Of a DNA stretch of 64,000 bases, positions 12,266 to 50,978 are shown one piece after another. Within the stretch, counting starts at the first letter, position 1, and each line of letters starts with the position of its first letter. Below the pieces are notes generated by a model, which ran no database searches, was not told where the DNA came from, and was given only the letters and a program-made list of their open reading frames with translations. This DNA is from Candidatus Raymondbacteria bacterium RIFOXYA2_FULL_49_16 (lineage in GTDB: Bacteria > Fibrobacterota > OXYB2-FULL-49-7 > XYB2-FULL-49-35), in contig MFYT01000005.1 in NCBI GenBank assembly GCA_001789205.1, forward strand, positions 1 through 64,000. Direction: 5' to 3'. The translations under genes were made by a program, and so were the position numbers.

Positions 12266-12300
12266 AAGATAGGGTTCGTGGGTCTTAAACGGGGTTTGGT

Positions 12301-12329
12301 GTAGGGGTGGGTTTTAAACCCACCCCTAC
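12301..12329. terminator. Near-perfect hairpin between convergent genes
   Basis: Arms GTAGGGGTGGGTTT and AAACCCACCCCTAC with a single T between them. It lies between the convergent genes ending at 12265 and 12373 and could terminate both. A partial copy (TTTTAAACCCACCCTAA) follows at about 12340-12356. The sequence type resembles short dispersed palindromic repeats of bacterial genomes. Confidence 0.65.
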
Positions 12330-12372
12330 AAATTTCTAATTTTAAACCCACCCTAACAAATTCAATTATACC

Positions 12373-21125: not shown

Positions 21126-21980
21126 TTATTCATCCAGCATTAATTTATTCGGAGTTTTTTTAAGCTTTTTTAACTGTTCTCGTTCAACTTCACTGATATT
21201 TTTACTTGGAACAGGTAAATCTTCCGGCATTGTACCACCCACTCGCTCAATCGTTCCTCGTACTTCTTTCCCAACGATAAAGTGGATTTCATTAGCGGCA
21301 TCAGCGGTTGCCGCCTTATCTTTTTTTAATTTATCATCAGTCTGGGATATTCTAAACAAATTGGCAATTAATTCCGTACTACTCATATAATCAAGAATCC
21401 TGTCCTGTTTCTTCAGCCCCTTCTTTTTATGAATATCTTCGACCTTCAATCCGCCATACAGTCCCATATAACCGGCATTCTGAAAAGTCGCATACTCTTC
21501 ATTGCTGATGACACCTGCATTATGGGCGGATTCGGCAAGCATCTGGTTCCATTGCTTGATATCACCCCTAATGACCAGTCGTTTGTTGTCTTCATCAAGC
21601 TGATTAAAGTAGTCGGCGACTTCCTGTCGTCTTGTTTGAATTGCAAAATATGTTTGACCTAAGGCAATGACCTCTTTCCGTGGGTCTCCATTCTGAACGA
21701 TTAAATAACAAGCATAACGGGTGAGTTTAAAATCAGCAATGGGTTTTGAAGTAGCACCCGCTTCTACGATTTTGCTGACCTCAGCAAAATGGTCTTGAAG
21801 CGCATATCCACTATTCTTACAGGCAAGCATAGCCCTGTCTAAAACTTTTGCAAAATTCCGCCATTGTACATATTCAAGTACAGGCGCAAGCTCCCTGGCA
21901 TACCAGAATTCAGCGCCATCATCCGAAACATGTTTGATTGCTTCAAATGAAACGTATTCTTTTGCTTTTAAATTACTCAT
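21126..21980 (-). CDS. dinD: DNA-damage-inducible protein D
   Basis: 284 residues, full family length. EFWYARELAPVLEYVQWRNF is the BRO-N-like start typical of DinD, and the KNSGY..HF..V.K and ITRYACYLIVQNGDPRKE-type segments are conserved. E. coli DinD is SOS-induced and reported to act on RecA filaments. No LexA box was recognised upstream, where only 43 bp separate it from the next gene. It shares a cassette-like block with the 22024-22761 gene. Confidence 0.9.
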   Translation of the reverse strand: MSNLKAKEYVSFEAIKHVSDDGAEFWYARELAPVLEYVQWRNFAKVLDRAMLACKNSGYALQDHFAEVSKIVEAGATSKPIADFKLTRYACYLIVQNGDPRKEVIALGQTYFAIQTRRQEVADYFNQLDEDNKRLVIRGDIKQWNQMLAESAHNAGVISNEEYATFQNAGYMGLYGGLKVEDIHKKKGLKKQDRILDYMSSTELIANLFRISQTDDKLKKDKAATADAANEIHFIVGKEVRGTIERVGGTMPEDLPVPSKNISEVEREQLKKLKKTPNKLMLDE

Positions 21981-41589: not shown

Positions 41590-42309
41590 TTAAAATATAA
41601 ACATATTGAGTTTCTGTTTGCGCTGTTGCCAATCCGGCATGGCCCTTGTTAGAATTTTAAAGAACTCAGAATCATGCTCACGGTTTGAAAGATGGCATAG
41701 TTCATGGAGAATGACATATTCAATACACGACAAGGGCGTCTTCACAAGGTTGATATTTAAAGTAATCAATCCAGCCTTTGTGCAACTCCCCCATCGTTTA
41801 TTCATGTTCTTTATCTGAAACTTTATATTCATGGTTTGTACAGGTTTCATGACTTTCGTTAAAATACCAAGGCGTTCTTTGAGCAATTTTTTAGCATGCA
41901 AAACATACCAGGCGTCCAATGCATTCTTTACAGTCTTGGTATCTTGTGGATCTGGCACATTAATATAGAGAAAAGGTCCCAATAATTTCACCCCGGTATT
42001 TGCCGCTTGTCTTACCCGAAGGCGGTATTGCCGGCCCAGATACAGATGTGTTTCCCCGGAAATATAACGCCGTTCCTCGGGTAACGGGTGAAAACGCTGG
42101 AAAAACGACCGCTGCTTGGCAATCCATTTCCTGCGTCTTCGTATCCTTTCATGGACCAGCTCCAGCGGTTGTCCTGCTGGGGCAATTGCCTGAACAGATC
42201 GATTTGGAAAAACAGTGATGCTCAGCCGTTTCTGGTTTCGAAAACAAACGGCAACTGGAATAGTTTCTGACCCAAACTGCAGGGCGTATGTGGTGGAACC
42301 GGGAATCAT
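41590..42309 (-). CDS. YgjP/DUF45 (M48-like) metallopeptidase of the type I R-M operon
   Basis: 239 residues. The zinc motif is VILHELCHLSNREH, preceded by NKRWGSCTKAGLITLN. Both are signatures of the YgjP family. It overlaps the end of hsdR (ATGA), as is common where this family accompanies type I restriction genes. A role in turnover of the restriction complex has been suggested for such neighbours but is unproven here. Confidence 0.88.
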   Translation of the reverse strand: MIPGSTTYALQFGSETIPVAVCFRNQKRLSITVFPNRSVQAIAPAGQPLELVHERIRRRRKWIAKQRSFFQRFHPLPEERRYISGETHLYLGRQYRLRVRQAANTGVKLLGPFLYINVPDPQDTKTVKNALDAWYVLHAKKLLKERLGILTKVMKPVQTMNIKFQIKNMNKRWGSCTKAGLITLNINLVKTPLSCIEYVILHELCHLSNREHDSEFFKILTRAMPDWQQRKQKLNMFIF

Positions 42310-45300
42310 TCAGGATACCTGACGCGGGCAATATCCAGGACAGTATCGAGAAGCGTGTCGATCTCTTCAAAAGAGAGGGATATACTGTTCTTCTCTTTTA
42401 GGTCAAAAAGATAGTCTTCAATGGCCAATTTCATTTGGTTCTGGATGTCCTGATTGCTGGTCCAGTTAACAATCATTTTTTCTTTAATCAGTTTATCTAT
42501 TTGAATACCCGCATCAGCCCCGATCTTTCTGGCATCGCTTTTTTCCGCAACATGGGAAGCAAAGACCTCGAGCAGCACACCATAAAAGGCTTTCGCAACC
42601 TCCAGGTTCTCAAGTTCCTTTGGAATTTCGTCACCCGACCTAGTTCTGATTTTTTCTGATATTTCCGTAACTTTTGCAAGATATTCCGCGTCTGTTAGTC
42701 TTTGTTGCCGGAAAGCGCGAATGGCTGCTTCCAATAATTCTGAAAATTTCTTATAAAAAGCCGGGTCCTCGGCCATTTTCTCACTGATGGTCTTCTTTGT
42801 CCGGTATGCGATAGTATCAGCTTTTGAAGCAGTACTTCCCTGTTTCTCTACTTCTTTGGCAAATGTATCCGCATCAAAGATGTTCACCAGATTAGTGAGT
42901 TTTTCTACTTCTCCTGTGCCGACGTGCGTATCCAGCAGTTTCTGAATACGGGTTTCATACTCTTTAAAATCCACAACCTCGGCGTACCGGCGCCTGACTG
43001 ATGTGCGCAACTGCATGAAGAACCGGAGATCTGCCTTATATTTTTCAACAATCTTTTCCGGGGTCTTGTCGATAAATTTCTGGGAAGCAATCGCAATACC
43101 AAGCGTCCGCGCATACACGGACAGGCGCTCGTAGAACTTTTCCCTGATCGCTTCGTCGGCAAGCAGCCGTTCATACGCTTCTTCATCGCGTTTGTTGTCT
43201 ATGGTCTTGAAGATGTCCCAAAGGTCTGAATAACGCTGCGAAAGCTTTGCCACCTCGACTTCAATATCAGCAAGGGCATTGCATAAATCGTCAAGGCCTT
43301 CATCTTCAAACGCAGAAAGCTTGCCGTAAATATCGAGGGCCTTGTCCAGGTTTTCCAGGACCCCCCGGTAATCGATAATATATCCAAAATCTTTTCCATC
43401 GTGCAGGCGGTTGACGCGGGCAATGGCTTGGAGCAAAGTATGGTCTTTGAGCATGCGGGTTAAATAAAGGACCGTGTTTCGCGGCGCATCGAACCCGGTA
43501 AGGAGTTTGTCCACAACAATGATGATTTCAGGCTGCTCACTGTTTTTAAACGCATTTATGAGCTGCCGGTTGTATTCACGGTCTGTGCCGTATTTACTCA
43601 TCATTCTTTTCCAGAAGAGTTTGACCTCTTCTTTTGTGTCGCCATGCGGATCATCCTCGCCTTCCCGGTCATCGGGTCCGGAGATCAGCACTTCGGATGA
43701 CACCATGCCGAATTCATCGAGGTATTTTTTATACAGTAGCGCAGCGGCCTTGTCCTGGGCAACCAGCTGTGCCTTGTATGGGGTCCCCTGCCATGCGTCC
43801 CGGTAATGGACGCTAATGTCGTATGCAACGCGCTTGACCTTCTGTTCAGCCTTGTTCAACTGGTCTGTAGTGGAAAATTTCTTTTTTAAATCAGCCCTTT
43901 GCGCGGGTGTAAGGTTTTCTGTAATCCGGGCAAACCACGAATCAATGGCTTCCTTGTCCACGTTCTGCTCAACGTGCCGGCCTTCGTACAATAATGGAAC
44001 AACAGCCTTGTCCTTTACCGCGTCTGTAATAGTGTACGTGTCTATTAACCCGCCGAAACGGAAAATAGTATTCCGGTCGTCTTTCATGACCGGCGTGCCT
44101 GTAAATCCCATAAAACAGCCATTGGGAATGGCTTTTTTCATTTTTGCATGCAGTTCGCCAAATTGTCCCCGATGGCTTTCATCGACCAGGACGAAAATAT
44201 TGGGGTTTTCGTTTCGGGCGGACTTGGCAACAGCAGCCTCAAATTTATCTATGACCGTTGTTATGATTGTGGACTTATTTTCCATCAGAAGTTCGGCAAG
44301 ATGCTTGCCTGTCTTTGCCTGCACAGGTGCGCTCCCGCAATGCAGAAAGACTTTGTATATCTGATCGTCAAGATCTACCCTGTCGGTCACAAGCACTATT
44401 TTGTAATTATTCAAACCCGTTTCAAGCGCAAGAGCTTCAGCAAGCATGACCATGGTAAGGCTTTTTCCTGACCCTTGCGTATGCCAAATGACCCCTCCCT
44501 GCCGGGACCCATCGGGCTGCACCTTTCTGATGCGATTCATTGTTTTTCTGACGCAGAAATACTGCTGGTGCCGGGCAATTTTCTTTTCTCCGGAATCGAA
44601 CAGCATGAAACGATAAACAAATTCCAGGAGCCGTTCGCGGCGGCACAGGTTGAACAGCGCGTGGTCCTGTTCTGTTATTTGCCTGCCTTTGGCTTCTATT
44701 GCATCGAAATATGCGCGGATATAATGGAAACGATCCTCAAATAGACGGTCTTTTTGTTCCGGGGAAGGAATCTGGCTGATTGCGCGATAAATGTCTTCTT
44801 CTACATATTCCTGTTCTTTCCAGACTGACCAGAATTTCGGGATGGTGCCAACTGTGCCGTATTTAGCCTCGTTTTTTGAAACAGCGATTAATAATTGGGC
44901 ATAATGGAAAAGTTTTGGTATTTCATAGTCTTTTTGGTTTCTGATATGCTGGCTTATTGCTTCGCCAATGGGGTCTTTCATGTCCGGCCGTTTGCATTCA
45001 ATGACCGCGAGGGGGATGCCGTTCACGAAAAGGACAATATCGGGCCTGCGGGTTTCGTTGCTGCCTGTGCGTTCGACTGAGTACTCTTCTGTGACGTGAA
45101 AGACGTTGTTTTCCCAGTTGTTCCAGTCGATGTAATACAGTTGGAAACTCTTGATGTCGCCTGCGATTACCTGCGGCAGGCCTTTTCCAAGGCAGAGAAG
45201 GTCGTAAATCTGTTCATTGGTTTTTAGAAGGCCGTTGTCCATGACACTGGTAAGTGTGTGCAGGGCGTCGATGATGTTGCCGTCGGTGAATGGGAATGCG

Positions 45301-45536
45301 CCGCCTTTGTATTTGATGACGTTTATTTTACGTAGCTGTTCAACCAGGATATTTTCGAGGACCACATTGCCCTTGCGATTATTCCGGGCCGCATCTGCCT
45401 CAATGGGGGTCAGATACGTATACCCGATGTTCTGCAGCAGTTGCAGAGCGGGGATTTGGGATATGTGGTCCTCCTTCATGGAGGGGATGGGATTTTTAGG
45501 AAAATCTGGCATGTTTTTTCTCACTTTTGCAACCAT
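42306..45536 (-). CDS. hsdR: Type I restriction enzyme R subunit
   Basis: 1076 residues. The nuclease motif is RRPDIVLF..AVIECKRP (D166, E180, K182). The translocase motifs are WHTQGSGKS (about 351-359), FVLVDESHRGQFG and FTGTPVMKDD. The C-terminal helical domain binds HsdM. It cleaves DNA after ATP-driven translocation at unmodified sites. The start codon and its AGGA ribosome site are enclosed by a perfect palindrome. An in-frame ATG at 45512 is an alternative start with a weaker ribosome site. Confidence 0.95.
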   Translation of the reverse strand: MVAKVRKNMPDFPKNPIPSMKEDHISQIPALQLLQNIGYTYLTPIEADAARNNRKGNVVLENILVEQLRKINVIKYKGGAFPFTDGNIIDALHTLTSVMDNGLLKTNEQIYDLLCLGKGLPQVIAGDIKSFQLYYIDWNNWENNVFHVTEEYSVERTGSNETRRPDIVLFVNGIPLAVIECKRPDMKDPIGEAISQHIRNQKDYEIPKLFHYAQLLIAVSKNEAKYGTVGTIPKFWSVWKEQEYVEEDIYRAISQIPSPEQKDRLFEDRFHYIRAYFDAIEAKGRQITEQDHALFNLCRRERLLEFVYRFMLFDSGEKKIARHQQYFCVRKTMNRIRKVQPDGSRQGGVIWHTQGSGKSLTMVMLAEALALETGLNNYKIVLVTDRVDLDDQIYKVFLHCGSAPVQAKTGKHLAELLMENKSTIITTVIDKFEAAVAKSARNENPNIFVLVDESHRGQFGELHAKMKKAIPNGCFMGFTGTPVMKDDRNTIFRFGGLIDTYTITDAVKDKAVVPLLYEGRHVEQNVDKEAIDSWFARITENLTPAQRADLKKKFSTTDQLNKAEQKVKRVAYDISVHYRDAWQGTPYKAQLVAQDKAAALLYKKYLDEFGMVSSEVLISGPDDREGEDDPHGDTKEEVKLFWKRMMSKYGTDREYNRQLINAFKNSEQPEIIIVVDKLLTGFDAPRNTVLYLTRMLKDHTLLQAIARVNRLHDGKDFGYIIDYRGVLENLDKALDIYGKLSAFEDEGLDDLCNALADIEVEVAKLSQRYSDLWDIFKTIDNKRDEEAYERLLADEAIREKFYERLSVYARTLGIAIASQKFIDKTPEKIVEKYKADLRFFMQLRTSVRRRYAEVVDFKEYETRIQKLLDTHVGTGEVEKLTNLVNIFDADTFAKEVEKQGSTASKADTIAYRTKKTISEKMAEDPAFYKKFSELLEAAIRAFRQQRLTDAEYLAKVTEISEKIRTRSGDEIPKELENLEVAKAFYGVLLEVFASHVAEKSDARKIGADAGIQIDKLIKEKMIVNWTSNQDIQNQMKLAIEDYLFDLKEKNSISLSFEEIDTLLDTVLDIARVRYPE

Positions 45537-45558
45537 TTTCCTGATATCAGGAAAATGG
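45533..45558. promoter_or_regulatory. Perfect 26-bp palindrome across the hsdR start
   Basis: Half-site CCATTTTCCTGAT repeated as its exact reverse complement. It contains the hsdR ATG (45534-45536) and the AGGA site. In DNA it could be an operator. In mRNA it would form a 13-bp-arm hairpin hiding the start codon. Confidence 0.8.
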
Positions 45559-45651
45559 TCTAACTTGTTTTAAATCAGAGACCTACACAAGCGCTCCCGT
45601 TTTATGCGAAATTTTCATTTTATCCGGCATGGAGGATACGTTTCTTTCCGT

Positions 45652-46869
45652 TTACGTCTTCACCCGTATCTTCCCCGTGAGAAGCTTTTGCATCAGACCT
45701 TTCTTTTGTATCTGTAAAACCTGCAAATATTCATTAAGCTTTTGAATTTCATTGTCGACAGATTCAAAAAAGCTGGCAATTTTCTTCTGTTCAAAAACAT
45801 CGGGAACATTTACTTGAATTTCAGCAAAGTTGCAAAATTTCAGATTCAGAGTATCGCTAACCAATCCTTGAGAATGCCGATAAAATTGGTGTACGACTTC
45901 AGGATATTTGAATAATTGTGCTATAAACGGACCATAGGCGTCGGGACCTGGAATACAAATAGTATATGCGGGACTTACGAGACCTTCAAGTGGAGATAAC
46001 GCGGAAACGCCTTGCCACATGCGCATTGTGTTATATCCGATATCTCCAACGGCAATTCTTTTATATAAGCTCTTATCTTCGTTTGAAGAATCTTTTCTTC
46101 CCATTTCTGAATGGGGAATAATCCCTTTCTCGCTGGTTATTGAGAGCAGCGGCAAATCAGGCCTATTTATTTCATCTCTTTCTAAAAACAATTTTCCCAG
46201 GCGAATTTTCTTCCACTCCCCCTTGCACCCCGGGAACCGCCTCTTCCCGGTCAGGAGCTGCTGCATGAGCCCCTGCTTAGTTTTAATCTTACACCCTATT
46301 AATTTACGCAAATTTAAAGCCAGCTCATCCCAAACTCGAAGGACATCAACAATTGCTTTTTGCTCGCTTTTAGATGGTAGTGGAATAAGAAGTCGTTGTA
46401 ATATTTCTTGACTAAGATTTGATATGTTCGTCCCACCCCCTTCAGTGAAAATTTGGTTACGAATTAGGGATGTACGCATCTGCAAATTCACATATTCAGG
46501 AATAACACTGTCATTTTTAATACGTGCGCGAATGGTGAAACCTGAATGACTGATTGGTTCCGATATTTTAGGAACCAATAAGCATCTGCCAATAAGGTTT
46601 TTATTGCCATTTGAGCGTACGAAAAGTAGGTCTCCTTCTCGTACCATATCTTCGTTATTGCTGGGTTTCGAGATGCTAACCGTCTCAAGGTTTGACAAAT
46701 CACAAACATATCGATCTTGAAAGTCGGATACGCCAACAATTTTAACAGTGTGACCAAAGTCTTTTCTTAAAAAATTTATTCCATTACGAAAATCTGCAAT
46801 TTGACCAAAAGGTATCTTCTGCCAATCTGATTTATTTCTAATATCGTTTTTATTCATTCGTTTGCTCAT
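45652..46869 (-). CDS. hsdS: Type I restriction enzyme specificity subunit
   Basis: 405 residues from the ATG at 46869, chosen for AAGGA 9 bases upstream and the ATGA overlap with the preceding small gene. Two target-recognition domains are each followed by a conserved helix ending in QGLMQQLLTGKRRFPG (middle) and KKGLMQKLLTGKIRVKT (C terminus). Those helices act as the ruler between the two half-sites. It determines the DNA sequence recognised by HsdM/HsdR. The frame opens further upstream, but the extra sequence overlaps the small gene and is unlike HsdS. Confidence 0.92.
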   Translation of the reverse strand: MSKRMNKNDIRNKSDWQKIPFGQIADFRNGINFLRKDFGHTVKIVGVSDFQDRYVCDLSNLETVSISKPSNNEDMVREGDLLFVRSNGNKNLIGRCLLVPKISEPISHSGFTIRARIKNDSVIPEYVNLQMRTSLIRNQIFTEGGGTNISNLSQEILQRLLIPLPSKSEQKAIVDVLRVWDELALNLRKLIGCKIKTKQGLMQQLLTGKRRFPGCKGEWKKIRLGKLFLERDEINRPDLPLLSITSEKGIIPHSEMGRKDSSNEDKSLYKRIAVGDIGYNTMRMWQGVSALSPLEGLVSPAYTICIPGPDAYGPFIAQLFKYPEVVHQFYRHSQGLVSDTLNLKFCNFAEIQVNVPDVFEQKKIASFFESVDNEIQKLNEYLQVLQIQKKGLMQKLLTGKIRVKT

Positions 46870-47138
46870 ATTGGACATTCCTTCCAATTCTCTGGAAACC
46901 CCATAATCCGCAGCGGTACATCCGGATAATCTTCCAACAGCTTCAACAACCTGGTGGACCATTGGCTCTGTGGTGCAATCTTGGCGAAAAGATAGAAGAT
47001 CGGGCCATAAAAAGAAACACCCGCCGGAATTAAGCATTCTGGTTTTGCATCCAGTAGAGGCTCGGCGGGTTTGCCAGTAATAATATAGCCAAATTCATCT
47101 ACTATGTCAACGGCAATCATGCTTGTGATCCAAGACAT
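46866..47138 (-). CDS. Small protein resembling the C terminus of Abi_2/AbiD-F proteins
   Basis: 90 residues. The last ~40 residues (SQWSTRLLKLLEDYPDVPLR then IMGFPENWKE) resemble the C-terminal end of Abi_2-family abortive infection proteins. The N-terminal half does not, so it may be a remnant or a separate small family. It fits the operon well: 18 bp after the winged-helix gene, with a ribosome site and a 4-base overlap with hsdS. Confidence 0.5.
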   Translation of the reverse strand: MSWITSMIAVDIVDEFGYIITGKPAEPLLDAKPECLIPAGVSFYGPIFYLFAKIAPQSQWSTRLLKLLEDYPDVPLRIMGFPENWKECPI

Positions 47139-47156: not shown

Positions 47157-48188
47157 TTAAACCTTTAAAAACGATTCCATCATCTCCTCAACCTGCTCCA
47201 GCACAGTTTCAACAAGCTCTTTCCCGCTAAGCTGATCAATGCTTCTTAATTCACCACCAAGGCCGCTATCACTCAAGGCGGACAAATGCTTCTGCCAGAG
47301 TTCACGCATGGCAATAGACTGCAACGAATCATTTTTCTGGTAAAATCCCGGAGTGCCTAACAATATCCACAGTGATTCAAGAAAAACAAAAACACTTGCC
47401 CAATTCAGCCAGGAAGGCTTTTCCTTTATTCCCAGAAGCAGACTCTGGCATAATTCCTTTGCAATCGCGTATCGCACTTCACGGCCAGCCTGCCTGCGCG
47501 ATACAAGGCCGGATAAAGACATATTAACCAGGGTATTGTGGACGGATTTCTGCGCATAACCGGTTTCCCTGGCAATTGCCGAAGGTGTTTCGCCGGACGG
47601 GCCCGGATGAGTAAGAAGGAAAAGGACTATTTCACTTCGCGTTGTTGTCCCAAAGAGCGCCCGGAGCCGCAGAAGCAGACAGGAAGGATGCGAAGGACTG
47701 AATGGTTGTGACATTCCCCTCAATTTAACCAAGCCCCGTTCAAAACCCAATGAACGAAAAACCTCATCCCCGGCTCCAAACCCTTTCATGGGGCGGCCAT
47801 CTTTTAAGATGAAGAGCGGCTCTGCATTCCGGTTGGGTGCATCCTTTTGTTTCCGCCATTTTGCACCGGCTTTTTGAGTTGCAAGAAAACCTTCAACAGC
47901 CGCCCATACCGCATTGCCGCTGAACAATCCGGACTTTGATAGCAGAAGCAGGCGCTGCTTGCTCACATATTCCTGATAGCAAACCAGCCAATCAAGCATT
48001 TCATCAAAAAGACGTGGTTCGCGCCTGCCTACGGAACACGTCATCAGAATCAGAGCTTCGGGATCAATGCACTGGTTGCCGGGTTTTGCGGAATATCCTT
48101 GTACACCCAAGACACACCATTGGCGCCAAATTAATTCCAAGAAAGCCTCTTGGAACCGCGCACTAAATTTGTTGAGCGATTCTTTCAT
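47157..48188 (-). CDS. Winged-helix protein paired with the nucleotidyltransferase
   Basis: 343 residues. A winged helix lies at about 185-250 (RSEIVLFLLTHPGPSGETPS, AIARETGYAQKSVHNTLVNM, GLVSRRQAGREVRYAI). The rest is helical and unassigned. It overlaps the nucleotidyltransferase by 26 bases. Such a regulator plus nucleotidyltransferase pairing resembles AbiEi/AbiEii-type toxin-antitoxin logic, but the fold order is different and the assignment is inference. The operator-like repeats at 48806-48838 could be its binding sites. Confidence 0.7.
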   Translation of the reverse strand: MKESLNKFSARFQEAFLELIWRQWCVLGVQGYSAKPGNQCIDPEALILMTCSVGRREPRLFDEMLDWLVCYQEYVSKQRLLLLSKSGLFSGNAVWAAVEGFLATQKAGAKWRKQKDAPNRNAEPLFILKDGRPMKGFGAGDEVFRSLGFERGLVKLRGMSQPFSPSHPSCLLLRLRALFGTTTRSEIVLFLLTHPGPSGETPSAIARETGYAQKSVHNTLVNMSLSGLVSRRQAGREVRYAIAKELCQSLLLGIKEKPSWLNWASVFVFLESLWILLGTPGFYQKNDSLQSIAMRELWQKHLSALSDSGLGGELRSIDQLSGKELVETVLEQVEEMMESFLKV

Positions 48189-48798
48189 AGCCAGTCACCA
48201 TTAACATTTCTTTTAAGGTTTCGCGGAACCCCTCTGATGGGTCTTGGATCATTGCCCAGCGGGCCGCGGATACGAGTTCAGTTTCAGATGGTTGCAGAGC
48301 AATCACATCATTCAGGTGGCGGTTCAGTTTTCCCTGGTCAACAGAGGCGAATATTTTAAAATAAATCTGATCCAACCTGCTGATGTAATAGACCGTAAGC
48401 CGGGGCCCATAAGCCCTTTCATGCAGCCGTTCTAAAAAACCTTCAGGTAGGCCATGATTCGGCATGCGGGGATTGACGATGCTCCTTGGTCCATTATTCA
48501 GCCAATTCTTCAGAAGTTTCAATTCGACGGCAACTACTTCCGCCGCTTTTATCAATTGAGGCGGCAGCGGCTGGGCCTCAAGCAACTCTTTTTTACTGTT
48601 GAAAAGGGCGATAATATCAACATCTTTTGTTGTTCTCTGAACAAGACCTGTCGCGATCAGGCTGGAACCACCGCAAACAATCAGATTTATTGGATCTAAT
48701 GTCTCTCCCTCCAGTATTTCTCCGAGCATTGTCATTGCTTGTTCCAATAATTTATCATCAAGCGGCGTAAACATGCTATTACTTCTTTTCGCACTCAT
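48163..48798 (-). CDS. DUF6036-like nucleotidyltransferase
   Basis: 211 residues. The nucleotidyltransferase signature is INLIVCGGSSLIATGLVQRT, then KDVDIIAL (GGSS at 43-46, D59-x-D61). Proteins of this kind are found as putative toxins of type IV-like systems. It sits between hsdM and hsdS with the winged-helix gene. A start 8 codons later (Met9) is possible. Confidence 0.75.
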   Translation of the reverse strand: MSAKRSNSMFTPLDDKLLEQAMTMLGEILEGETLDPINLIVCGGSSLIATGLVQRTTKDVDIIALFNSKKELLEAQPLPPQLIKAAEVVAVELKLLKNWLNNGPRSIVNPRMPNHGLPEGFLERLHERAYGPRLTVYYISRLDQIYFKIFASVDQGKLNRHLNDVIALQPSETELVSAARWAMIQDPSEGFRETLKEMLMVTGYERIAQQI

Positions 48799-48805
48799 AT
48801 TAGTA

Positions 48806-48838
48806 TATAATATACTTGTTATAAGGCTATAATATACT
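48806..48838. promoter_or_regulatory. Two direct repeats ahead of the nucleotidyltransferase gene
   Basis: TATAATATACT occurs at 48806-48816 and 48828-48838, exactly 22 bp (two turns) apart. The second overlaps the hsdM stop codon, and the first also forms GTATATAATATAC (48803-48815). They fill the 38-bp gap before the gene and suit a promoter with two same-face operator sites. Confidence 0.55.
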
Positions 48839-50333
48839 AATTATAGCCTAGTTCTTTCAAGTATCCAGCCATTTTCTTCCGTGTTGCAACAAGCTCTTCT
48901 TCAAGTCCCTCAATCTCTTTCTGGACAGCTTTGATATCTATCTCCGGTTCCTTCACAAACGTATCCACATAGCGAGGGATATTCAGATTAAAATCGTTTT
49001 CAATGATTTCATCCTGTTTGGCCCTGTAAGAATACTTGTCGATAGTTTTAAACGCCTCAAATGTTTCGATAATCTTGGCAATGTCTTCTTCGCGCAGGCG
49101 GTTCTGCGTCTTGTCGTCCTTGTATTCGCGGCTCGCGTCAATGAACAACACATCTTTTGTCTTCTTTGCCCTGTCAAAAACAAGGATGGCCGTGGGAATT
49201 CCCGTGCCAAAGAAAAGGTTCTCGGGCAGGCCAATGACTGCTTTGAGAAGATTATCCTCAATGAGCTTCTGCCTGATTTTTCCTTCACTACCACCCCTGA
49301 AAAGCACGCCATGGGGCACCACAACGCCAACGCGGCCTTCGTCTTCAAGCGTGGTCTCAATCATATGACTGATAAAAGCGTAGTCCGCCTTGCTCTTTGG
49401 CGGCAGGCCGCGCCAGAACCGGTTGTACCGGTCATGAGCAGCGTCCTCATGGCCCCACTTATCGAGACTGAAGGGCGGATTAGCGACCACAACATTGAAC
49501 CTCATAAGCTTGTTTTCTTCCACAAGCCGGGGACTTGTCAGAGTATCGCACCGTTCTATGCGGGCATTGTCCATGGCATGCAGGAACATGTTCATGCGGC
49601 AGAGCGCCCAGGTTGAACCATTGGACTCCTGGCCGAAAAGGGCATAGTTGCCGCTTTTGACCTCGCGTCCAGTGCGGATGAGGAGCGAGCCGGAACCGCA
49701 GGCAGGATCACAAATTTTATCTCCATCTTTGGGTTTGAGAAGTCGCGCAAGAAGCGTTGCGACTTCAGCCGGTGTATAGAATTCTCCGCCTTTTTTACCA
49801 GCATTAGCCGCAAAATGGCCTATGAGATATTCATAGGCATTGCCTATTACGTCCTGGTTTCCAATGCGGCTGGGTCTCAGGTCCAACTTCGGATTATTAA
49901 AGTCATTCAGGAGGTTAATAAGGCGACGGTTTCTATCTTTGGTTTCACCAAGGTTGGGTTCACTATTAAAGTCAATGTTCCTGAACACGTTTTCAAGCTT
50001 GGTCTTGTTTGCGTCTTCAATACGCTCAAGACCAATATTGATGAGTTCGCCTATATTCGATTTCTCCCTTTTTGAATAGAGAAAGTCGAAATCTGATTCC
50101 TTGGGCATAACAAAACGTTCGCGGGCAAGCGCGCGTTCAATGCGTTGTTTGTCGCCTTTATAACGTTCACTGTATTCAGCCTGTTTATCCTTGGCAAGAT
50201 CGCTCATATACTTCACGAAAAGCATGACAAGGATGTAATCCTTATATTGGGCAGGATCCAGCGTACCCCTGAAGGTGTCGCAGGCGCGCCAGAGGATTTC
50301 ATTGATCTCTTGTTGAGAAACTTTTTCAGCCAT
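48837..50333 (-). CDS. hsdM: Type I DNA methyltransferase subunit (N6-adenine)
   Basis: 498 residues. The N-terminal HsdM helical domain (EINEILWRACDTFRGTLDPA) precedes the methylase. SAM motif I is KICDPACGSGSLL (about 206-218) and the catalytic motif is NPPF at 285-288. It methylates adenine in the target chosen by HsdS. It lies 18 bp behind the half-sized specificity gene. Confidence 0.96.
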   Translation of the reverse strand: MAEKVSQQEINEILWRACDTFRGTLDPAQYKDYILVMLFVKYMSDLAKDKQAEYSERYKGDKQRIERALARERFVMPKESDFDFLYSKREKSNIGELINIGLERIEDANKTKLENVFRNIDFNSEPNLGETKDRNRRLINLLNDFNNPKLDLRPSRIGNQDVIGNAYEYLIGHFAANAGKKGGEFYTPAEVATLLARLLKPKDGDKICDPACGSGSLLIRTGREVKSGNYALFGQESNGSTWALCRMNMFLHAMDNARIERCDTLTSPRLVEENKLMRFNVVVANPPFSLDKWGHEDAAHDRYNRFWRGLPPKSKADYAFISHMIETTLEDEGRVGVVVPHGVLFRGGSEGKIRQKLIEDNLLKAVIGLPENLFFGTGIPTAILVFDRAKKTKDVLFIDASREYKDDKTQNRLREEDIAKIIETFEAFKTIDKYSYRAKQDEIIENDFNLNIPRYVDTFVKEPEIDIKAVQKEIEGLEEELVATRKKMAGYLKELGYN

Positions 50334-50351: not shown

Positions 50352-50978
50352 TTATGTACCTTGTTGAATAGATTCCTTATACACTGCCGTGAACTGCCTA
50401 TGCCTGGCATCAACTAATTTCCGTAAAATAAGCTCTTCCTGTTGCCTGAGTTTTTCCAATGCGACCGTGGCTTTTTGGATATCGAGAGAAGGAATAGAAA
50501 TTGGCAAATCCTCAACAGCCGATTTAGTAATGAAAGGCATGCCTGTGCCGCCCAGGTTATTTCTGATATAGGATTGGGCCAAAGGTAAATTCAGGCTTAG
50601 CGCCAAATATTCAGGTAAAATTTGCGACGTTTCAGGACGAAGGATGTAAAAATAGTACGTGGCTACTGTATTTTCCAATGGTTCCGTAATTGGAATGGCA
50701 AACGCCTTTTGCCCGCGAGAAAGAAATAAAACATCACCCTTATGAACACAATAACGGGAAACATCTGTCTCTGGTAATATATATGAAATGGTCTTGGGCC
50801 AGATATATGGCGCCATGCCACCATTCTGCAGGACTTCTTGTTTGAAAATCCCTGCCTGGTCTATATCTTTTATTTGAATAATACCAACAGCACCAGGTAT
50901 CTCTGCCTCAACAAGGGACAGCCCCACCCTTATTTGATAACCTATACGAATCGAAACTATATTTTTCATTTTTGTCAT
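50352..50978 (-). CDS. Half-sized specificity subunit (single target-recognition domain)
   Basis: 208 residues. One target-recognition domain (GAVGIIQIKDIDQAG, LPEYLALSLNLPLAQSYIRN) ends in a single coupling helix (IQKATVALEKLRQQEELILR). It is half the length of a normal HsdS and resembles half-subunits that can dimerise. It opens the operon under a strong promoter, with a complete HsdS downstream, so two HsdM assemblies with different specificities are possible. Confidence 0.78.
   Translation of the reverse strand: MTKMKNIVSIRIGYQIRVGLSLVEAEIPGAVGIIQIKDIDQAGIFKQEVLQNGGMAPYIWPKTISYILPETDVSRYCVHKGDVLFLSRGQKAFAIPITEPLENTVATYYFYILRPETSQILPEYLALSLNLPLAQSYIRNNLGGTGMPFITKSAVEDLPISIPSLDIQKATVALEKLRQQEELILRKLVDARHRQFTAVYKESIQQGT

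Follow-up and report, generated by a model that had tools for sequence, protein, structure and literature searches.

A perfect palindrome between hsdS and hsdR

The restriction gene of a type I restriction-modification operon in Candidatus Raymondbacteria begins at a long perfect palindrome, which raises the question of whether this is a private switch of hsdR or one copy of a more widespread element. The window, meaning the whole stretch of DNA analyzed, comprises 64,000 nucleotides. Its HsdR, HsdM and HsdS domains are encoded in a single operon, which identifies the locus as a type I restriction-modification operon, in which a half-length S gene comes first, followed by M, a pair of cargo genes, S, R and a YgjP-like peptidase (Table 1); the palindrome is located between hsdS and hsdR. 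Relatives have the layout small S, M, S, cargo, R and YgjP, with the half-length hsdS-like gene again preceding hsdM, and their cargo varies and is often placed between hsdS and hsdR, a slot in which DarTG2 has been described (PMC12255303). A separate 26-bp inverted repeat, AGGCTATAATATACTAATTATAGCCT, lies over the hsdM stop codon, a short way upstream of the cargo gene that encodes the DUF6036 protein (48824-48849).

Table 1. Features of the window discussed in the text, with their coordinates.
Feature	Coordinates	Strand	Remarks
dinD	21162..21923	-	NF008573 (DinD equivalog) 366.9 bits vs cut-off 242; Bro-N above cut-off
Second family site, within dinD	21768..21791	.	GCT class: GATTTT-GCT-GACCTC-AGC-AAAATG
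YgjP/SprT-like metallopeptidase	41590..42309	-	Last operon gene
hsdR	42306..45536	-	PF04313/PF18766, TIGR00348; start 45536 or, more likely, 45512
Full dyad site AACCATTTTCCTGATATCAGGAAAATGGTC	45531..45560	.	30 bp, perfect over 45532-45559; CCT class
hsdS	45652..47037	-	PF01420; palindrome starts ~93 bp past its stop codon
Winged-helix protein, cargo	47157-48188	-	Within operon
DUF6036 nucleotidyltransferase, cargo	48163-48798	-	Within operon
hsdM	48837..50333	-	PF02384/TIGR00497
Half-length hsdS-like gene	50352..50978	-	Upstream of hsdM; layout kept in relatives

The first-pass annotation had placed a perfect palindrome of 26 bp at the hsdR start and judged a chance origin very unlikely. The palindrome is real and somewhat longer, as ACCATTTTCCTGATATCAGGAAAATGGT at positions 45532-45559 spans 28 bp with 14-bp arms and zero spacer, and base composition bears out the judgment on chance (2.4e-4 zero-spacer palindromes with 14-bp arms expected per window, and 0.02 over the 5.4-Mb genome). 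The 28-mer is single-copy in this genome when searched at up to 3 mismatches, and imperfect 20-bp matches to it lie mostly within ORFs. Long inverted repeats as such are unexceptional, since a 452-kb sample of the genome, from which the background rate was taken, contains 13 perfect ones (arm length 11 or more, loop 6 or less); among these 13, the hsdR palindrome is the only one with zero spacer and 14-bp arms. No stem followed by a T tract was detected at 45300-45900, and an intrinsic terminator at the palindrome was rejected for lack of the T tract. An Rfam search gave no match at the palindrome and just two sub-threshold matches elsewhere. Another perfect inverted repeat of the window, with 15-bp arms and a 1-nt loop, lies between convergent genes (12300-12330) and is probably a terminator-type element.

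The palindrome had also been described as enclosing the start codon and ribosome site of hsdR. An ATG (45536) and an AGGA do lie within it, but they are 2 nt apart, a spacing scored as no Shine-Dalgarno site, given that the aligned spacing of Shine-Dalgarno-like matches of at least 5 bases peaks at 4-6 across 312 long ORFs. Three in-frame ATGs could serve as the hsdR start. The next one, at 45512, is preceded by a weak GTGA and gives an N-terminus about as long as in relatives, and the homology of hsdR to its relatives starts near residue 18. Because the AGGA spacing is off and 45512 matches the relatives, the description is doubtful, and hsdR more likely starts at 45512 than at 45536; the end of the palindrome would then lie 19 nt upstream of the start codon.

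The palindrome recurs within dinD with compensatory codon changes

Outside this genome, the exact 28-mer was found in one phage (two IMG/VR contigs), where it is intergenic and followed by a T run; this phage showed no DNA similarity to known phages. At up to 3 mismatches, the palindrome is present in four other genomes of the phylum, in three of them within dinD, and these three dinD copies share the frame seen at hsdR, in which they encode DHFPDVRKMV or a peptide close to it. Members of dinD, a gene of the Bro-N family, carry it in Fibrobacterota, Bacteroidota, enterobacteria (E. coli) and phages, in one frame that reads HF-X-D-V-Y-KM.

In a sampling that began from one CCT-class protein, and in which BLAST may have placed distant motifs off by codons, X and Y are exact reverse complements in 42 of 57 dinD genes (shuffle mean 5.7, maximum 14). 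Nine such codon pairs occur (CCT/AGG, CCC/GGG, GCT/AGC, GCC/GGC, GTT/AAC, CGT/ACG, CGC/GCG, TCC/GGA and GAG/CTC), and the residues encoded by X and Y vary freely among them. The dinD of E. coli K-12 is of the GAG class and that of a Fibrobacter of the CCC class. The outer arms covary as well, with CAC..GTG in Parabacteroides (L154) and TGT..ACA in a fecal phage (L188). Among 54 distinct dinD sequences, cells changed on both sides number 92 versus 33 in shuffles, and arm covariation is 0.404 versus 0.176 in shuffles and 0.05-0.145 in slid pairings; it should be noted that the shuffles overstate significance because the sequences are related, a relatedness that the slid controls retain. The palindrome inside dinD is thus conserved by compensatory change. 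It is rare for a coding gene to maintain a palindrome through paired codon changes that also change the protein, and such a case is strong evidence that the site matters more as nucleic acid than the residues encoded there. Covarying arms, which had been proposed as a check in related hsdR genes, were found in dinD and are absent from the hsdR genes themselves.

The window has its own dinD, whose GCT-class copy is 24 kb from hsdR (Table 1). A PDB search returned no relative, and the AlphaFold model of the window's DinD (pLDDT 43) is too poor to place X and Y relative to DNA. Neither a palindromic target, whether inside dinD or elsewhere, nor the site sequences were found in the open-access literature searched.

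The hsdR palindrome belongs to a dispersed family of dyad sites

Comparison of 262 distinct sites gave the half-site consensus DAYCATTTT-XYZ-GRC / GYC-Z'Y'X'-AAAATGRTH. The hsdR site, laid out as AAC CATTTT CCT GAT / ATC AGG AAAATG GTC, has this half-site in both arms with complementary XYZ, and carries T at centre position 12, where C is commoner in the family. The hsdR palindrome is therefore a member of a recurring, dispersed family of dyad sites of ~30 bp, apparently undescribed so far.

Fibrobacter-family genomes each hold several palindromic CATTTT-N12-AAAATG sites, whose gene neighbors include KilA-N, AbiEii, GmrSD, DUF1016, HicAB, XRE/ImmA and TfoX-like genes; such sites are also present in two type I loci. 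Among viral contigs, the CGT and GTT arm classes were found in at least 120 each and the CCT class of hsdR in 60, compared with 3 for the composition-matched control class TGC (one control pattern of that form). Class purity in these contigs is partly by construction, because complementary XYZ and an invariant CATTTT/AAAATG were built into the viral searches. Of the first 160 viral loci, only about 10 carry the site within dinD. The remaining viral sites are mostly intergenic, at a median of 28 nt downstream of a stop codon, and 50 of 161 sites lie within 10 nt of one; extragenic sites are convergent in 32 cases versus divergent in 16, with weak T enrichment. Some sites fall within other ORFs, many of them from a terminase-like family, and these may be a coincidence of coding. 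In one locus (L091), four site-like copies, CATTTTCGTGAGYCCGCGCAAATG, lie 454-694 bp upstream of the dinD palindrome at an exact 80-bp spacing.

Near the center, the two halves of the site vary independently: at positions 9 and 10 the combinations are close to the products of the single-half frequencies across the 262 sites, with AT 121, AC 51, GT 47 and GC 17 at position 10. The XYZ match between halves is partly imposed by the searches; in an open CATTTT-N12-AAAATG search, non-identical XYZ pairs with the family center differ by one base. Since independent variation of the halves is expected of a dimeric DNA site and not of a stem, the half-site statistics favor a DNA dyad over an RNA stem.

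These results recast two earlier proposals. The idea of an operator-like DNA site gains from membership in a large dyad family whose half-sites are independent near the center, and loses the role specific to hsdR. Conserved control of hsdR itself holds poorly because none of ~20 hsdR relatives with upstream DNA has the palindrome, and hundreds of unrelated genes have a site of this class. The palindrome thus appears to be a DNA site of a general kind, protein-binding or mobile, and not a private hsdR switch. A different type I locus (L015:1437-1467, genome G132) has an unrelated 31-bp palindrome, TTTCTATGGTCACAAATTGTGACCATAGAAA, shortly before its hsdR, and that palindrome is single-copy in its genome.

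DinD-type Bro-N proteins are the leading candidate readers

The phage-type DNA-binding proteins of the DinD/Bro-N/KilA-N group offer a likeness, as the family has the palindrome in its own gene, and several sites lie next to Bro-N and KilA-N genes. In the neighborhood of dinD, 30 of 46 half-sites have the XYZ class of the palindrome inside that dinD (mean 9 and maximum 21 over 5000 shuffles). In Bernardetia, two upstream copies match the rare TCC class found inside dinD, and in Thiothrix (L176, L149) the internal palindrome is lost and sites are located just upstream of dinD. Two dinD alleles (L073 of genome G067 and L082 of genome G102) are 93-100% identical through most of the gene and fall to 60-73% identity at the DNA level across ~180 nt of the palindrome-bearing Bro-N segment, where their classes differ (CCC versus GCT). 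Because the class of neighboring sites matches, sites stand upstream where the internal one is lost, and the class changes with the Bro-N swap, a DinD-type protein is favored as the leading candidate reader. The modular swap between the two alleles resembles the exchange of target-recognition domains. It is also worth mentioning that one strain of Streptococcus marmotae carries two prophages, Javan290 (L185) with a CGT-class dinD and Javan291 (L440) with a CGT-class site near capsid genes.

Two genomes have sites and no Bro-N match (G117, 87% complete; G043, 73% complete). In the window's own genome, no cognate reader for the CCT site of hsdR was identified, because its dinD belongs to the GCT class and no CCT site lies near the genes of its other two Bro-N proteins. 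In addition, the preference of the sites for 3' ends argues against a repressor operator, as operators usually lie elsewhere.

Taken together, we consider it about evenly balanced whether the hsdR palindrome is a CCT copy of these dispersed dyad sites with a Bro-N protein of the DinD kind as its candidate reader. A dimeric protein would recognize the site in double-stranded DNA, XYZ would set the specificity class, and the reader would most likely be a DinD-kind Bro-N protein with its own target inside its own gene. A bolder version, which we regard as unlikely, is that DinD-type Bro-N proteins recognize the palindrome in the codons of their own DNA-binding segment and that the class-coded sites dispersed over phages and defense genes, hsdR included, form a DinD-read network across phyla. 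Within such a network, a swap of the segment would change reader and target together, because the palindrome lies inside the codons of that segment.

Alternative explanations

It is conceivable, if unlikely, that the sites are a mobile palindromic repeat of the REP or Rickettsia kind, copied among genomes and phages, inserted after stop codons, in linkers and in dinD, and without a role at hsdR. The wide spread of sites among unrelated genes, with some of them in large ORFs, would fit, as would the exact stop-adjacent placement and the occurrence of one TfoX-like gene with its site in different surroundings (L164 versus L166). REP sequences and Rickettsia palindromic elements are likewise short dispersed palindromes, extragenic or in frame within genes; they are species- or genus-bound, and the Rickettsia elements are longer, whereas the CATTTT-XYZ family spans several phyla and phages in several arm classes. 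Moreover, only the ~30-bp dyad is common to the copies, the degenerate center and flanks follow the half-site consensus, no transposase partner was found, and the site keeps its position in dinD even as both arms change their XYZ. Site-specific recombination is another possibility, in which the arms and 6-bp center would be a tyrosine-recombinase or cassette core swapping accessory genes, including the hsdS-hsdR cargo; such a scheme gives no function to a copy within an intact dinD, and we regard it as quite unlikely. The arm-center-arm geometry with a degenerate center does recall dif, attC and lox, which are often next to stop codons too, and sites directly follow the stops of toxin-antitoxin, GmrSD, DUF1016, AbiE and KilA-N genes, with integrases making up 4 of 43 stop-adjacent viral genes. 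Homology ends within sites in 161 of 6826 cases, ~five-fold above a rough expectation, a count that is too high because BLAST alignments run on through the conserved dyad. No linked or common recombinase emerged for CATTTT-XYZ sites, and they do not match the dif or attC consensus.

The remaining explanations concern RNA, descent and mutation. The first-pass annotation had suggested that a transcript hairpin hides the hsdR start and lowers restriction relative to modification. The predicted fold is strong (-41.2 kcal/mol, z -3.5), as is expected of any palindrome like this one; the covariation of dinD arms would also follow from RNA pairing, and arm mismatches of the T-G type are present in dinD. 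The hairpin is nevertheless disfavored and very unlikely in our view, as the ATG and AGGA of the palindrome are probably not the start signal, hsdR relatives do not conserve it, center positions show no pairing, and many sites follow stop codons, where there is no start to hide. Descent from a lost dinD that left just its palindrome before hsdR would account for the shared reading frame (DHFPDIRKMV) and for how often dinD lies near type I restriction-modification genes in the phylum, with dinD and hsdR on one contig and at most ~10 kb apart in G157, G153, G130 and G124; given that the flanks beyond the 30-bp site are unlike dinD and that many stand-alone sites occur without any visible dinD remnant, we consider such descent highly improbable. 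Finally, intra-strand template switching could perfect, with no function, a quasi-palindrome that the protein encodes, since the codons of the conserved HF and KM are naturally reverse-complementary to each other (CATTTT/AAAATG), and it would give double changes such as that of the fecal phage L188. It leaves unexplained both the hundreds of non-dinD copies, which share these constant arms and this set of classes, and the class matching of neighboring sites, and appears extremely improbable.

Possible role at hsdR and comparison with known systems

Returning to the reading of the palindrome as a dyad site with a candidate DinD-type reader, the hsdR copy might act as a roadblock at the hsdS-hsdR junction, ride along in the cargo slot, or be a relic. 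A protein bound there might block transcription and so lower R relative to M and S; a passenger copy left in the hsdS-hsdR cargo slot would be equally possible. Judging from the sequence data, an effect of the site on hsdR expression is possible though rather improbable. Type I restriction is alleviated by ClpXP through proteolysis of assembled HsdR (PMC4231737, PMC3874165), which solves the same problem of keeping restriction behind modification with no DNA or RNA site at hsdR.

Hundreds of phage contigs contain sites of this class, which also lie beside toxin-antitoxin, GmrSD, AbiE, HicAB and restriction-modification genes. Finding the reader could expose a layer of control or mobility shared across phage and defense islands. 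It would also provide a concrete, quickly testable DNA target for dinD, an SOS gene of poorly understood function, and a DinD-read network, if true, would link DNA damage or prophage induction to defense genes.

A known parallel is RptR, a dimeric regulator that reads short DNA palindromes and controls type I restriction-modification islands (PMC12255303). Both those islands and the window have a type I operon, with defense cargo between hsdS and hsdR in the islands (PMC12255303). The RptR site is a 6-bp TAGCTA repeated in the island promoter (PMC12255303), whereas the palindrome of this operon measures 28-30 bp and is found at hsdR only. TAGCTA occurs twice in the window, fewer times than expected by chance, and not near the operon, and an RptR-controlled island was rejected on this ground. 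As a separate observation, a Bernardetia plasmid carries many inverted repeats centered on TAGCTA, the RptR operator core, upstream of its dinD (L173:1457-1950).
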